Of a stretch of DNA of 64,000 nt, positions 12,740 through 19,242 are shown one piece after another. Source of the stretch: Rummeliibacillus pycnus (GTDB lineage Bacteria > Bacillota > Bacilli > Bacillales_A > Planococcaceae); the NCBI RefSeq assembly GCF_002884495.1, contig NZ_KZ614145.1, positions 3,424,423 through 3,488,422 of the forward strand. The letters are read 5' to 3'. Made by a program: the position numbers and the translations under genes. Below the pieces are notes generated by a model. It saw only the letters and a list, made by a program, of their open reading frames with translations. It was not told the DNA's origin and ran no database searches. Each line of letters starts with the position of its first letter. Position 1 is the first letter of the stretch.

Positions 12740-12880
12740 CGCCCCTGATGGAAGTATCATTTTACCCCCATTATTAACGGGCAAGTGTGTATATAAGGAG
12801 GGAAAAACTGCCCGAAAAAGCCGATTGGTTCAACTAACCATCAGTGGGGAAAAGCCCCCCTCTGATGGAAGTTTCACTTT
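12740..12880 (+). repeat. Dispersed hairpin repeat, copy B (after dapA)
   Basis: The stretch contains CCCCTGATGGAAGTATCAT, GGGAAAAACTGCCCG, GCCGATTGGTTCAACTAACC and the hairpin CCATCAgtGGGGaaaagCCCC...TGATGG. Its reverse complement matches copy A in the pst operon over more than 45 bp with a few differences. It abuts the dapA stop codon and may act as the dapA terminator. Confidence 0.65.
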
Positions 12881-13772
12881 ATGAAATAACTTCTTCTTTT
12901 ACTTTCACTACTCGCAATACTTCTTGTAATGCATTTATTTCGTTATCGTTTAATGGGATAATTGGTAAACGAACGCCGCCGACAGGAATACCTTTGAGAT
13001 TTAATGCAGCTTTGACAGGTGATGGATTTGGTGCTGCAAATAGTCCATTGAATATTGGAAGGTATCGACGATGATCTTGTGCAGCTTCTTGTGTATTACC
13101 ATTTTTGAATTTTGTAATCATTGCTTGCATTTCATTTCCAATAATATGGGAAGCCACGGAGATTACACCTGTAGCACCAATAGATAATGCCGGTAATGTT
13201 AGGCTATCCTCGCCAGTGTAAACTGAAAATTCTTCAGGTGTTTGGCTAATTGTTTCAGCCATCGCATCTAAATTACCACTTGCATCTTTAATCGCTACGA
13301 TATTTGGAATTTGTGCTAATCGAACGACTGTTTCAACTGCCATATTGATGACACTTCGACCTGGGATATTGTAAAGTACAATTGGCAGTGTTGTTGCTTC
13401 AGCAATTGTTTTAAAGTGTTGATATAATCCTTCTTGGGAAGGTTTGTTATAATATGGGACTACGAGCATAATACCATCCACGCCTGTATCCTCTGCAAGT
13501 TTAGTTAAGTTCACAGAAGCTCTTGTATTGTTTGAGCCGGTACCAGCTATAACAGGAACTCTTCCAGCAACAGTGTCTACTACAAATTTAAATAATTCTA
13601 CTTTTTCTTCTGTTGATAACGTAGGAGATTCTCCAGTTGTACCTGCAACTACTAAACCGTCTGTTCCATTAGCGATTAAATAATTGATTAAGTTTTTAGT
13701 AGCTGGGAAATCAATTTCTCCATTTTGATCAAATGGTGTCACCATAGCAGTTAAAATTTGTCCAAAATTCAT
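12879..13772 (-). CDS. dapA: 4-hydroxy-tetrahydrodipicolinate synthase DapA
   Basis: The 297-residue TIM-barrel enzyme condenses pyruvate with aspartate semialdehyde, the committed step to lysine, diaminopimelate and spore dipicolinate. The Schiff-base lysine is in AIKDASG (Lys162), the catalytic tyrosine in VLYNIPGR (Tyr134), and the threonine pair in GTTGESP (Thr45/46). The gene is monocistronic on the minus strand, and a lysine riboswitch with a terminator lies between its promoter and its start, so high lysine should switch it off. Confidence 0.96.
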   Translation of the reverse strand: MNFGQILTAMVTPFDQNGEIDFPATKNLINYLIANGTDGLVVAGTTGESPTLSTEEKVELFKFVVDTVAGRVPVIAGTGSNNTRASVNLTKLAEDTGVDGIMLVVPYYNKPSQEGLYQHFKTIAEATTLPIVLYNIPGRSVINMAVETVVRLAQIPNIVAIKDASGNLDAMAETISQTPEEFSVYTGEDSLTLPALSIGATGVISVASHIIGNEMQAMITKFKNGNTQEAAQDHRRYLPIFNGLFAAPNPSPVKAALNLKGIPVGGVRLPIIPLNDNEINALQEVLRVVKVKEEVIS

Positions 13773-13894: not shown

Positions 13895-14072
13895 TGCGTA
13901 TGATAGCCCTCCATATAGTTTCCTACATGACAGTTCTGTATTTATTCAACAACAGAACCAGCTTCGAGAAAAATGAGATTCTCTCCACTTCGGCAAATCC
14001 CCCTTTCCACAAATCTCAACGGACCTCATTATCCTCCAAGTGTGTACTAATGGTTTTTGCGCCTCTATCCTT
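13895..14072 (-). promoter_or_regulatory. Lysine riboswitch (L box)
   Basis: Read on the minus strand, the leader contains the conserved L-box blocks in order: AGAGGCGC, AGTA, GGAGGATAATGAGG, AAAGGGGGATTTGCCGAAGT, GCTGGTTCTGTTGTTGAATA, ACAGAACTGTCAT and GGAGGGCTATC. Order and spacing match the Bacillus lysC aptamer. A terminator follows, so lysine binding should stop transcription before dapA. Confidence 0.93.
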
Positions 14073-14115
14073 ACTTCAAAGAAATATTGAAATAAGTGAA
14101 TATTTAATTATTGGA

Positions 14116-15099: not shown

Positions 15100-15642
15100 T
15101 TGTCGATCATTTACGAAGTTATTTCTGAAGATGCAATAAGTTACATCAAAGATCTATGTAATGAATTAATGGCGTATCAACAGTCTAAAGCAACTGTTCA
15201 TCCTGAGTTGTTTGATAACATGAATTTTGAAACGAGAATGATTCCTTCAGTCAAGAGTGCTAAGAATAACTACATTATTGTAGCCAAAGATGGTAATGAA
15301 ATTGTTGGGTATGCATATAGTAATATTTCACCGAAGGAAACGTATTCCAATGATTTTGCCACTTTAAATTGCGATGCTTTCTTTGACTTTGAATCAGTAA
15401 AAAATAATAATGTAGGCAGTCTTTCACAATTTTACATTAAAGATGGTTATCGTAGGTTGGGCATAGGGTCTGTTTTGTTCAAAAAGTCGATGGATTGGCT
15501 GAATACATTTGAGCATATAAGTGATATTTTTATATTCGTGTCAGAAGGAAATGATCAGGCTTTGAAATTTTATCAAAGAAAAGGCTTTAATATCAGTCAT
15601 CAGATTTTAGATGGGTTTATCACAGTACTAAGAAATACTTAA
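15100..15642 (+). CDS. GNAT family N-acetyltransferase
   Basis: The 180-residue protein carries the acetyl-CoA pyrophosphate loop YRRLGIGSVLF (about residues 119-129), preceded by an LSQFYIKDGY strand and followed by NDQALKFYQRKGF, the usual GNAT C-terminal motif. The start is TTG at 15100, with GAGAGG nine bases upstream; no ATG fits the homology better. The substrate is unknown. A terminator follows, so it is separate from the radical SAM unit. Confidence 0.82.
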   Translation: MSIIYEVISEDAISYIKDLCNELMAYQQSKATVHPELFDNMNFETRMIPSVKSAKNNYIIVAKDGNEIVGYAYSNISPKETYSNDFATLNCDAFFDFESVKNNNVGSLSQFYIKDGYRRLGIGSVLFKKSMDWLNTFEHISDIFIFVSEGNDQALKFYQRKGFNISHQILDGFITVLRNT

Positions 15643-15667
15643 ACTACATTTAGCAAAACTTTTGTAA

Positions 15668-15705
15668 AACAGATACAATAGTGAAAAGTATTGTAGCTGT
15701 TTTTT
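15668..15705 (+). terminator. Terminator after the GNAT gene
   Basis: AACAGaTACAATA, loop gtgaaaag, TATTGTAgCTGTT, then a T run. It isolates the following radical SAM unit. Confidence 0.8.
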
Positions 15706-15783
15706 GATATATGTTTAATGGATCATAAAATAAATGATTACATATTGCCTTATTCCTTATACATATCACAGTACCATGTGACC

Positions 15784-15813
15784 TTGCGAGATATTTTTAT
15801 AGTATGGTATTAT
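15784..15813 (+). promoter_or_regulatory. Candidate promoter for the radical SAM unit
   Basis: TTGCGA (15784-15789), 18-bp spacer, TATTAT (15808-15813). This leaves an untranslated leader of about 195 nt before the TTG start at 16019, in which I see no convincing reading frame. Confidence 0.4.
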
Positions 15814-16018
15814 AAATTGCTCCAACTATTTTTAGGAGTCGTTTCTACGTATACTATTCATTTTTATTTAATTCAACTATAGAAGTTAGTTTTAAAGTTA
15901 GAATTGAACGTTTTAAGATTACTATATTGATATTTTTTTATAGAAGAAATATGATGATTGTTGGGAATAGAAATGAAATTAAAAGAATAGAAATGAGTAA
16001 AAGGGAGGTTTATGAATT

Positions 16019-17359
16019 TTGGAGAATAAAAATAATTATGTTCCATCAAAGTTTAATGCCTTATCTAAAACGGATGATGGAGGCGTCATTTTATACAATA
16101 GTTATACAGGCGCCATTGTTGATTTTTCAGAAGAAGAAAAAGCAGAAGTCATGGGTTCTTTAAAGAGAACGGGGACAGCTGCATTAGATAGTGATGTAAA
16201 AAAAGCTATGTTTGATAATGGTTTTATTGTTCCCGATAATGTAGATGAGAAGAGACGAGCAGAATATTTGCACCAATCTATGCACCGTACAGATATGTTG
16301 CACCTGATCCTTATGACAACAGAACAATGTAATTTCCGTTGTACGTATTGCTATGAAACATTTGCACGTGGCAAAATGACAGACGAAACAAAAAGTGGTG
16401 TAAAAGCATTAGTAAAAGAACGAGCTACTACTCTAAATAATTTACATATTAGCTGGTTCGGTGGTGAACCATTACTTGAATTAGGAATCATCGAAGAATT
16501 GTCTAATTCATTTATGGCAGAAGCAAAAGAAAATAAAATCGATTATTCTGCTGACATTGTAACAAATGGATTCTTTTTAACAAGAGAAGTTTTTGAAAAA
16601 TTATTATCTTGGGAAGTACGTCAATATATGGTGACAATTGATGGTGTTCAAGCAGTACACGACAGTCGTAGACATATGGCAGGCGGTCAAGGAACATTTG
16701 AACGAATTATTGAAAATCTAAAAGCTGTTAAAGAAAGTACTGGTCAGTTTGATATGACAATTCGTGTCAACTTCGATGAAGACAATTTACAAGAAACTGG
16801 CGAATTAATTGATTTCTTAAAAGAACACTTTGCTGATGATAAGCGCTTTGGCGTATTCTTCCGTCCTGTTGGTAGATGGGGTGGAGAACATAATGATGAA
16901 ATTCCTACATGTACACACATTACAGCTAATAAAAAAATCTGGGAATTCACAGAAACAGCTATGGATAAAGGCATTAGTATGAGTAATATGGTTACAGGCT
17001 CTTTAATGCCAACTGCATCTGTATGCTATGCTGCTAAACCAAATGCTATGGTTATTGGCTCAAATGGTCAATTATACAAATGTACAACTGTTTTAGATGA
17101 AGAAGTAAATAAAGTTGGCCATATCCATGCTGATGGTACTATGGATCTTGATTATGATAAGATCGCTTCTTGGGTAATGTCTGGGGAAGAAACAGACTCT
17201 GTTTGCCAATCATGCTTCTACCGTCCTGCGTGTCAAGGAAATCACTGCCCATGGTATCGTGTAGTATCTGGAGAAAGACCTTGTCCATCTGAAAAGAAAA
17301 ATATTAAAAAAGTATTAAATCTTGTTTGGAGAAATAGCTTACAAAAAGAAAAAGTGTAA
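16019..17359 (+). CDS. Radical SAM/SPASM peptide maturase
   Basis: This 446-residue enzyme has three parts. Residues 1-90 (NSYTGAIVDFSEEE ... MFDNGFIV) resemble PqqD-like precursor-recognition domains. The radical SAM core follows, with CNFRCTYC (Cys104, 108, 111) binding the SAM-cleaving [4Fe-4S] cluster and WFGGEPLL. The C-terminal SPASM domain has Cys336-x13-Gly-x4-Cys355 and Cys396, 399, 405, 410 and 422, ligands for auxiliary clusters. SPASM enzymes of this size usually modify ribosomal peptides. The start is TTG with GGGAGG ten bases upstream. It is followed 119 bp later by a 28-codon peptide gene, the likely substrate. A sulfatase maturase is less likely, as no sulfatase is near. Confidence 0.88.
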   Translation: MENKNNYVPSKFNALSKTDDGGVILYNSYTGAIVDFSEEEKAEVMGSLKRTGTAALDSDVKKAMFDNGFIVPDNVDEKRRAEYLHQSMHRTDMLHLILMTTEQCNFRCTYCYETFARGKMTDETKSGVKALVKERATTLNNLHISWFGGEPLLELGIIEELSNSFMAEAKENKIDYSADIVTNGFFLTREVFEKLLSWEVRQYMVTIDGVQAVHDSRRHMAGGQGTFERIIENLKAVKESTGQFDMTIRVNFDEDNLQETGELIDFLKEHFADDKRFGVFFRPVGRWGGEHNDEIPTCTHITANKKIWEFTETAMDKGISMSNMVTGSLMPTASVCYAAKPNAMVIGSNGQLYKCTTVLDEEVNKVGHIHADGTMDLDYDKIASWVMSGEETDSVCQSCFYRPACQGNHCPWYRVVSGERPCPSEKKNIKKVLNLVWRNSLQKEKV

Positions 17360-17478
17360 TAAGACGCTATGAAATAGTAGAGAGCTTCTCTAAATCATCG
17401 TATTAGTGCTAATATTATAGATAGCTGTTGTATTTTTCAGCATAAAATTAATAATTGGAAAGAAAGGGGGTGAGATGA

Positions 17479-17565
17479 ATGCGCGTACTTAGCCCTGCAG
17501 CATCTCCAGTTCAAAAAGTAAAATCTGGACGTATCATGAAATCTGTACCTGGTAACTTAAAATAG
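17479..17565 (+). CDS. 28-residue basic peptide, candidate RiPP precursor
   Basis: A strong GAAAGGGGGTG site lies six bases before the ATG at 17479. A TGA (17476-17478) directly precedes that ATG in frame, so no longer form is possible. The product starts MRVLSPAASPVQKV and continues KSGRIMKSVPGNLK. It has six Arg/Lys and no acidic, aromatic or cysteine residue. A strong terminator follows at 17589. Its place directly behind a SPASM enzyme makes it the obvious substrate. I do not recognise the peptide. An upstream ATG at 17475 gives only a 5-codon frame. Confidence 0.65.
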   Translation: MRVLSPAASPVQKVKSGRIMKSVPGNLK

Positions 17566-17588
17566 TAATGGTGACAGTTAACCACAAT

Positions 17589-17630
17589 AAAGTCCCTAAT
17601 CTTCATTTGTGAAGATTAGGGACTTTGTTT
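17589..17630 (+). terminator. Strong terminator closing the radical SAM/peptide unit
   Basis: AAGTCCCTAATCTTC, loop atttgt, GAAGATTAGGGACTT, then TGTTTTTG: a 15-pair perfect stem. It is also downstream of the convergent decarboxylase gene. Confidence 0.92.
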
Positions 17631-17642
17631 TTGGAGATGTAA

Positions 17643-19088
17643 TTAATGTTCTTCATATACAATAAGTTTCCGTTCGGCTAAAGCTGTTCCACCATGAAAA
17701 CGAGAATGAAGGGCTAACAAATTTTCTAGAGTAGTGATTTTTTTTGCAGTAATCCTCTCTCCAGCCATCAAGAGAGGGATGCCAGGAGGATAGGGAATAA
17801 CCATTTCACCTGAAATTTTACCAATCGCTTCGTTAAATGATAGTTGTTGTATCTTTGTTTGCTGCATCTCAGTGTAAGATAAAGACAAAGTGACGATTTT
17901 TTCGGTTTCTTCCCAATTACCAGTAGATTCATACTCTTTCGTTCTATACTGAGATTTAACAGCCGACGTGATTAATGTAGCTGTTTGATCAAATGGATAG
18001 CTTTCTCCTTTTTTTACTAATGGCAATACGAGTAAAACATTTTGAGGATCTGCTAATTCAGAGTAGATCCCTTTTTCTTCAAGGAGAGCCTGAAGATCAT
18101 AGCCACTAAGTCCACAATTTGAGCGAATACTTATTTTTAATGGATCCATCCATACTTCTTCCGGAGGTTCCAATACATCAATTTCCGGGATAGCGGACAA
18201 CAAAATTTTAAACTGAGAAATTTTTTTTATAAGTGAATCTTGATCATCTTGTGAGTAAGAAGCCAAATATGCTCGTGCTAGATCAAGTGACCCCATTATT
18301 GGATAAGATGGACTGCTCGATTGAAGCATTTGTAAATAAAACTCAACTCGATTTACATTTACCAATGAACTGTTAACATGCAAATAAGAGCCCATCGTCA
18401 TTGCAGGCAACGTTTTATGTGCGGAATGAACGACAACGTCTGCGCCCATCTCAAGTGAACTTTTAGGAAATGGTGATGGTAACGAAAAATGAGCCCCATG
18501 TGCTTCATCAACAAGAATGGGAATTCTTTTTTTATGTGCTAACGCAATTACATTCGTTAAATCATGTCCAAGCCCATAATAATTAGGATAGGTTAAAATT
18601 ATTGCTTTTGAGTTAGGATACATTTCTAATGCTTCTGCAACAATCTTAAAATCTAGGCCCCCAGCAATCCCCCATTTTTTATGGAACGTTGGGGATAAAA
18701 AAACAGGTTTTACATTTGCTAACATCAATCCATGGAGAACAGACTTGTGACAATTGCGTTGAACGAGGACAGTATCGCCTTCACTACATGATGCTAAAAT
18801 CATTGCTAGATTACCTACTGTTGACCCATTTACAAGAAAGTAACTTTTCTTTACGCCATATAACTCTGCTAATAATAACTCTGCCTCTCGTATAGGGCCA
18901 ACAGGTGCGTGCAAGTCATCTAATCCTGTTAATTCTGTGGCATCAATAGAAAGTAAACGCTTGTATAAATAGTTGCCTTTTTCTAAAAAAACTTTTCCGT
19001 TTTTATGGCCAGGTACATGATAGGATACTTTATCATTCTTATAGAAATTCTCTAAAGCATCATATAACGGCGTCTGAAATTGATTCAT
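17643..19088 (-). CDS. PLP-dependent Orn/Lys/Arg decarboxylase family protein
   Basis: The protein has 481 residues from the ATG at 19088, which is better spaced from its AAGGAAG site than the ATG six bases upstream. The large-domain motifs YHVPGHKNG, VDEAHGAHF and the PLP-lysine motif SAHKTLPAMTMGS identify the group I Orn/Lys/Arg decarboxylases, in the short Bacillus form (YaaO/SpeA-like, lacking the N-terminal wing domain). It probably makes agmatine or cadaverine for polyamine synthesis; the substrate is not settled by sequence. Cytoplasmic and monocistronic. Confidence 0.87.
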   Translation of the reverse strand: MNQFQTPLYDALENFYKNDKVSYHVPGHKNGKVFLEKGNYLYKRLLSIDATELTGLDDLHAPVGPIREAELLLAELYGVKKSYFLVNGSTVGNLAMILASCSEGDTVLVQRNCHKSVLHGLMLANVKPVFLSPTFHKKWGIAGGLDFKIVAEALEMYPNSKAIILTYPNYYGLGHDLTNVIALAHKKRIPILVDEAHGAHFSLPSPFPKSSLEMGADVVVHSAHKTLPAMTMGSYLHVNSSLVNVNRVEFYLQMLQSSSPSYPIMGSLDLARAYLASYSQDDQDSLIKKISQFKILLSAIPEIDVLEPPEEVWMDPLKISIRSNCGLSGYDLQALLEEKGIYSELADPQNVLLVLPLVKKGESYPFDQTATLITSAVKSQYRTKEYESTGNWEETEKIVTLSLSYTEMQQTKIQQLSFNEAIGKISGEMVIPYPPGIPLLMAGERITAKKITTLENLLALHSRFHGGTALAERKLIVYEEH

Positions 19089-19242
19089 ATACATCTTCCT
19101 TCGAACTAATTTTTCATATTATTATTTTACCATTTGGCTAGCTCTTCATTAGCGAATCATATTGCCAATTTTTGAAATAGCGTATAATTATAATATAACC
19201 TATGAATAGATTTCTTAAAGGTTAGGAATATTAAAGAAATGG

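Follow-up and report, generated by a model that had tools for sequence, protein, structure and literature searches.

A radical SAM/SPASM enzyme and a 28-residue peptide are encoded side by side in the genome of Rummeliibacillus pycnus (3.85 Mb, one contig), and the pairing of the two, which recurs throughout the enzyme's clade, is real. On sequence comparison the peptide is very likely the substrate of the enzyme, and by architecture and pairing an undescribed RiPP family is the best reading of the unit. In this unit an RRE probably binds the leader of the peptide and the radical SAM centre modifies its C-terminal core. The window, that is, the whole stretch of DNA that we analyzed, has 64,000 nucleotides; the features of the unit are collected in Table 1.

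Table 1. Features of the enzyme-peptide unit, in window coordinates
Feature	Position	Strand	Basis or remark
Terminator-like hairpin after GNAT-like gene, upstream of enzyme	15666-15706 (~15666-15703)	+	Fold z -3.75
Enzyme ribosome site, GGGAGG	16003-16008	+	Sequence
Enzyme ORF	16019-17359	+	446 aa, TTG start
Probable RRE (PqqD-like winged-helix) region, residues 1-92	16019-16294	+	AlphaFold secondary structure, structural alignments
CxxxCxxC for SAM cluster (C104, C108, C111)	16328-16351	+	46/46 clade enzymes
Extra Cys298 outside cluster motifs	16910-16912	+	Invariant, 46/46 clade enzymes
SPASM domain, seven Cys (C336, C355, C396, C399, C405, C410, C422)	17024-17284	+	46/46 clade enzymes
Peptide ribosome site, GGGGGTG	17466-17472	+	Sequence
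Peptide ORF	17479-17565	+	28 codons, ATG start, product MRVLSPAASPVQKVKSGRIMKSVPGNLK
Probable leader, residues 1-10	17479-17508	+	Conservation; similar start in three sister loci; putative role
Probable core, residues 17-28, GRIMKSVPGNLK	17527-17562	+	Conservation; K21, P24, G25 invariant
Terminator, nearly symmetrical	17589-17632 (stem 17589-17626)	unassigned	Fold and consensus scan

The TTG start of the enzyme is supported by the R. suwonensis locus (L005), which has ATG in that column of the alignment. The enzyme and peptide ORFs are separated by 119 bases whose RNA has no stable fold (z 0.64 against shuffles), and purine-rich sites also lie 5' of the other tabulated clade peptides. An earlier note on this DNA had described a SPASM enzyme followed by a 28-codon gene with a ribosome site and a terminator, and the ORFs, the motifs and the fold of the downstream stem agree with it. 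The note had further placed terminators on both sides of the unit. The downstream one stands: its stem folds far better than shuffles (z -7.3) and is the sole site in a consensus scan of 15600-17700, where it was called on the minus strand. The upstream hairpin does fold (z -3.75) but has no match in that scan. The downstream terminator is probably common to the unit and to a convergent Orn/Lys/Arg decarboxylase gene (17643-19094, minus strand), whose homologues occupy this position in no loci but those of Rummeliibacillus and Kurthia. Because the downstream terminator is strong and the intergenic RNA unfolded, co-transcription of the two genes is plausible; promoter-like matches in the region are only in moderate excess (17, compared with 11.0 in shuffles, sd 3.4). 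As the note had also said, no transporter or protease gene adjoins the unit within the window.

Orthologues were drawn from assembled genome contigs (13 loci), the host family (7/261 genomes at E 1e-60), a class sample (19/398 at E 1e-60, sister enzymes included), a phylum sample (2/398 at E 1e-80, these being the host and a sister), family f3 (31/245 at E 1e-90, 28 with the clade and three with sisters only), the family of genome G388 (1/4) and the order of Proteiniclasticum (3/194). Repeat fetches (L001-L003, L018-L021, L028-L032, L046, L180 and L209-L211) were left out of the table of loci. The peptide lies downstream of the enzyme in 47/47 tabulated loci, at a distance of -13 to +174 bases in 46 of them and, by the stop rule used, at +387 in L040, where the enzyme is interrupted. 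Two loci first placed with the sisters, L185 and L186, also carry it, which makes 49 of 49 clade loci, many of them close relatives and not independent. L040, L185 and L186 were assigned to the clade by identity (47%, 48-50% and 42-58% by piece, respectively), L186 also by its QGNHCP motif. The enzyme match at L040/L142, L185 and L186 is broken or falls into two pieces, with the peptide frame intact; the L185 genome also holds an uninterrupted copy, L167. Five loci from the family f3 search (L183, L184) and the class search (L035, L039, L042) are sisters without a recognised peptide.

A profile of the peptide (A2, 19 rows) points the same way from the peptide side, with exactly one match (E <=0.1), beside the enzyme, in 17/17 enzyme-positive genomes. 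When run on 121 host-family genomes it matched all seven enzyme-positive ones, and among the other 114 the sole match was a borderline one (E 0.009) that lies within a frame of 168 aa. The earlier note had staked its reading on a conserved pairing with a conserved core; this is what the 49 loci hold, with a Lys, a Pro and a Gly invariant, and the frame is neither lost beside orthologous enzymes nor replaced by another short neighbour gene.

Clade peptides are 27-32 aa long, and the counts that follow refer to 38 distinct clade sequences, L185 and L186 being left out. The N-terminus reads M-[K25/R13]-[I18/V17/other 3]-[I22/L12/V4]-R (35/38)-[P28/S7/other 3]-A (34/38), with Pro at position 10 in 30/38. 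A variable linker joins it to a C-terminal block that opens with G (36/38)-[R27/K8/Q2/T1]-[L14/I13/V11]-x-K (38/38) and continues as [S30/A5/T3]-[V34/A3/M1]-P (38)-G (38)-[N33/S5]-[L37/M1]-[K20/S14/N4]. The C-terminal octapeptide thus has the consensus K-[STA]-[VAM]-P-G-[NS]-[LM]-[KSN], in which K, P and G are invariant among the 38; of the reactive side chains, that of Lys21 alone is invariant. Division into a leader of about ten residues and a core is likely. V-P-G-N is a classical beta-turn sequence, and such a turn would bring residues 21-23 close to residues 26-28. The peptide frame is constrained as a protein and under purifying selection: across 23 chosen pairs of peptide genes that overlap one another (607 codon comparisons), changes at codon positions 1/2/3 number 44/13/172, with 153 synonymous against 44 non-synonymous codon changes.

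Equally telling is what the peptides lack. Phe, Trp and Tyr occur in none of the 38, and Cys in none of their cores; His is found in some peptides, always upstream of the core. Because the core has neither Cys nor aromatic residues, the product could not be a sactionine, ranthionine or cyclophane. We accordingly set aside the sactipeptide/ranthipeptide class, for which a Cys donor is present in 0/38 cores, and the cyclophane (triceptide), streptide and darobactin types, which find no F, W or Y in the 38 peptides. A thioether might still be made through the Cys that five of the 38 peptides carry at position 12, an idea we find barely credible, given that the other 33 have no Cys at all and that position 12 falls in the variable linker.

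The enzyme has the architecture expected of a peptide-modifying radical SAM protein with a leader-binding domain. It matches PF04055 in Pfam at 62.6 bits and has no PqqD match there. The PqqD-like N-terminal region that the earlier note had described is nonetheless supported by an AlphaFold model, in which predicted strands and helices over residues 7-87 fit an RRE as judged inside the full-length model, and by structural alignments with TigE and CteB, which start at model residues 3 and 10. The CxxxCxxC motif and the full SPASM cysteine set, also listed in that note, are present and invariant in the clade. Between C405 and C410 the window enzyme has four residues (CX4C), the canonical last SPASM spacing being three (CX3C), and the clade carries a signature around C-Q-G-N-H-C-P-x-Y-R in this domain. 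Clade-specific positions are E40, M204, W308, H409, Y413 and R420, with Q or N in the sisters at the position of M204. Cys298, outside the cluster motifs, is also found in 11/14 sister enzymes.

In a FastTree phylogeny built from 65 enzymes, the intact clade members (46) form a monophyletic group with support 1.0, nested among enzymes about 35-45% identical to that of the window; deeper nodes have support of 0.65-0.81. At 12/17 sister loci (11/16 once L185 and L186 were moved to the clade, plus L041) there is a small adjoining ORF that has a ribosome-site-like sequence and whose last seven residues include a Cys; some of these ORFs may be chance ORFs. Examples are MKFVKKANQAVRKINAGNNCNC and three tandem copies of MKWIVKAA/T..NNNNCNC. 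The sister peptides at L034-L045, L143, L178, L187 and L188 end in NCNC, NCHNC, GNCHIC, CNNCWC or a single Cys, sometimes in tandem copies. Those of L036, L037 and L038 start M-K-h-[VI]-x-K-A, like the clade pattern M-[KR]-[IV]-h-R-x-A, and because of this similar N-terminus a history in which one leader-binding scheme was kept and the core changed appears likely.

The same three loci bear on whether the peptide is a substrate at all. It might instead be a partner or regulator of an enzyme that acts on another molecule, which would suit a cassette that stands alone, with no recurring linked protease or transporter, and a peptide whose N-terminal part is conserved as well as its C-terminal part. 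However, at the three sister loci the N-terminus is still similar but the C-terminus is not, as expected of substrates, and characterised RRE-bearing SPASM enzymes beside short peptides are generally known to modify those peptides. We regard the regulator role as decidedly improbable and continue with the peptide as substrate.

In the mechanism that we propose, the leader (the first ~10 residues of the peptide, mostly M[KR][IV]hRPAxxP) would be bound by the N-terminal RRE. SAM would then be cleaved at the radical SAM centre to a 5'-deoxyadenosyl radical, a hydrogen atom would be abstracted from the core K21-S-V-P-G-N-L-K28, and the SPASM clusters would accept the electron or hold the substrate in place. 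What most probably results is a bond, or some other alteration, in the region of the invariant Lys21 and the V-P-G-N turn. Genes elsewhere in the genome would have to provide leader removal and export, unless the product stays intracellular. A non-thioether, non-cyclophane modification installed in the C-terminal octapeptide is the best reading of the enzyme's action. Ala or Met is allowed in place of Val23 and Ala in place of Ser22, which speaks against either residue as an obligate partner and in favour of Lys21 or the turn backbone; Lys21 with the turn is our first choice for the site and type of modification, a tentative one.

Several enzymes manage without a Cys donor: TvgB, which converts Val to cyclopropylglycine (PMC9062424), spliceotide and epimerase enzymes (PMC11002830) and EpeE (PMC8326336). 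Two of these chemistries deserve weighing against a change at Lys21. An epimerase would remove the alpha-hydrogen of a core residue and return hydrogen from the other face, with Cys298 as a possible donor and no cross-link. We consider this unlikely: the sister enzymes that share Cys298 have peptides mostly with Cys, so that the residue could serve an auxiliary cluster instead, as a ligand or by shaping it, and EpeE has two clusters in all according to PMC8326336, whereas three are expected in the window enzyme. EpeE is also distinct in that this paper assigns it a secreted epipeptide with a 32-residue leader.

The other chemistry is that of a cyclopropyl synthase like TvgB, which would join the two methyls of Val23 in [ST]-V-P-G, much as in T-V-G-G. 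Val is present at position 23 in 34/38 peptides, and the window enzyme has a full-length structural match to TigE, which we take to be a cyclopropyl synthase. The ring is impossible, however, where position 23 is Ala (3/38) or Met (1/38), the Proteiniclasticum core having A-A-P-G in place of S-V-P-G, and the peptide has a single copy of the core. PMC9062424 places the Val on which TvgB acts in a TVGG repeat and describes such repeats in TvgA, together with a cluster of five genes that includes putative transporters, unlike the one short unrepeated core and two genes of the window. On balance such a ring seems improbable here. A change anchored on Lys21 remains our preference, and in its fullest form, a widespread, self-contained two-gene RiPP class whose full-SPASM enzyme forms a Lys-anchored non-thioether, non-aromatic linkage across the Pro-Gly turn, with a product that stays intracellular or uses general transport, we offer it as conceivable rather than probable. 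RiPP mining guided by neighbouring transporter genes, as PMC11002830 describes it, would miss such a unit because of this intracellular or generally transported product, if that is true.

Named families of related enzymes differ from the window system. The best NCBIfam match of the enzyme, nearly full length, is TIGR04463 (rSAM_vs_C_rich; 243.6 bits, cut-off 525), followed here by the Clo7bot maturase TIGR04334 (195.5 bits over residues 10-439, cut-off 600) and CefB, NF038107 (189.2 bits over residues 10-408, cut-off 600); all three scores lie below the curated cut-offs, and we rejected membership. A TIGR04463 example from Methylomagnum adjoins a 2-kb 'Cys-every-fifth' precursor gene and further enzymes, and at an annotated Clo7bot locus seven Cys-rich peptides are named and an ABC transporter is encoded, in both cases unlike the window. 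CteB, a SCIFF/ranthipeptide maturase, makes a Cys thioether, whereas the window core has no Cys.

Carriers of the clade belong to at least 16 genera, namely 15 genus labels in Bacilli (g1, g7, g21, g31, g44, g73, g77, g83, g90, g103, g120, g409, g413, g414 and g418, the enzyme of the g73 carrier being interrupted) and the clostridial Proteiniclasticum. The closest relatives of the window enzyme are in Rummeliibacillus species (91-92% identity). The seven enzyme-positive genomes of the host family fall in two genera, and family f3, with its 28 carriers, is of the same class; the Planococcaceae search suggested in the earlier note is too narrow for this system. The Proteiniclasticum enzyme falls within Bacilli, where Rummeliibacillus plus Kurthia form its sister group (support 0.979); the group that also takes in Bacillus and Robertmurraya has support 1.0. 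This nesting, with Proteiniclasticum the only carrier seen in its order, points to horizontal transfer. We infer that the third carrier in that order, G1349, is also Proteiniclasticum because its peptide equals that of L017. One of the four Rummeliibacillus genomes, G002, has no enzyme, and there the flanks of a 6.5-kb interval of the window, decarboxylase included, stand 1.2 kb apart. Viral origin was rejected, as none of the 67 viral-contig relatives exceeds 41% identity in its best segment, and likewise plasmid origin, all 62 matching plasmid records being less than 60% identical. The translated stretches of two Deinococcus plasmid loci (L022, L023; enzyme ~40-41%) hold no PGN peptide; the gene next to the related enzyme there carries the annotation LLM-class oxidoreductase or alkane monooxygenase, and lantibiotic dehydratase and thiopeptide-type genes are annotated near the enzyme of L022.

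The flanks of the unit bear out the minimal RiPP locus of the earlier note. All-against-all clustering of ORFs of at least 70 aa from 25 loci (24 of the clade and sister L143, the window flanks being judged separately) gave, besides the enzyme, no flanking family that extends beyond two of the 15 genus groups. There are twelve families common to two groups each, mostly not adjacent to the unit; a decarboxylase beside the unit is common to Rummeliibacillus and Kurthia, and a DNA-ligase-type gene to g21 and g83. A Pfam scan of 20 flanking proteins found varied, mostly housekeeping functions, and two proteins without a family. Neighbours include GMP synthase, amylase, Na+/H+ exchanger, glutaredoxin, arginine-deiminase-like protein, DNA ligase and, beside L132 only, an AcrB-type pump. 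Upstream alignments of three Rummeliibacillus and four Kurthia loci, inspected by eye, showed no shared palindrome or named box.

The putative RiPP precursor, which the earlier note did not recognise, has no family in NCBIfam (19 peptides searched) or Pfam (window peptide). The open-licence full-text literature that we searched holds no description of the enzyme-peptide pair, and the supplement alignments of PMC9062424 could list the family. Searches of open-licence full texts for SVPGNL, VPGNLS or SVPGSL returned only papers on human proteins or peptides, and for Rummeliibacillus with radical SAM only a spermidine riboswitch paper. In most SPASM-made peptides the chemistry involves Cys or an aromatic residue, TvgB being one of a few exceptions. 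The window system offers a fair chance of new chemistry: with K..PG kept, a core without Cys and a peptide without F, W or Y, it provides a clean test for undescribed radical chemistry. The Cys-bearing sister peptides and those of the clade form a natural before/after pair, in which the six clade-specific enzyme positions stand out, and since two short genes suffice, a direct test in E. coli is possible.

Two other features of the window lie before the unit. A lysine riboswitch aptamer (RF00168, 113.9 bits) at 13896-14075 on the minus strand stands upstream of a dapA-like ORF on the same strand (12879-13772). At ~12790-12897 there is a dispersed intergenic repeat of ~85 bases. Of the four Rummeliibacillus genomes, G002 has few copies of it and the other three have many, at 74-93% identity; its DNA strand folds better than shuffles (z -2.73), and the repeat is perhaps a small mobile or REP-like element.
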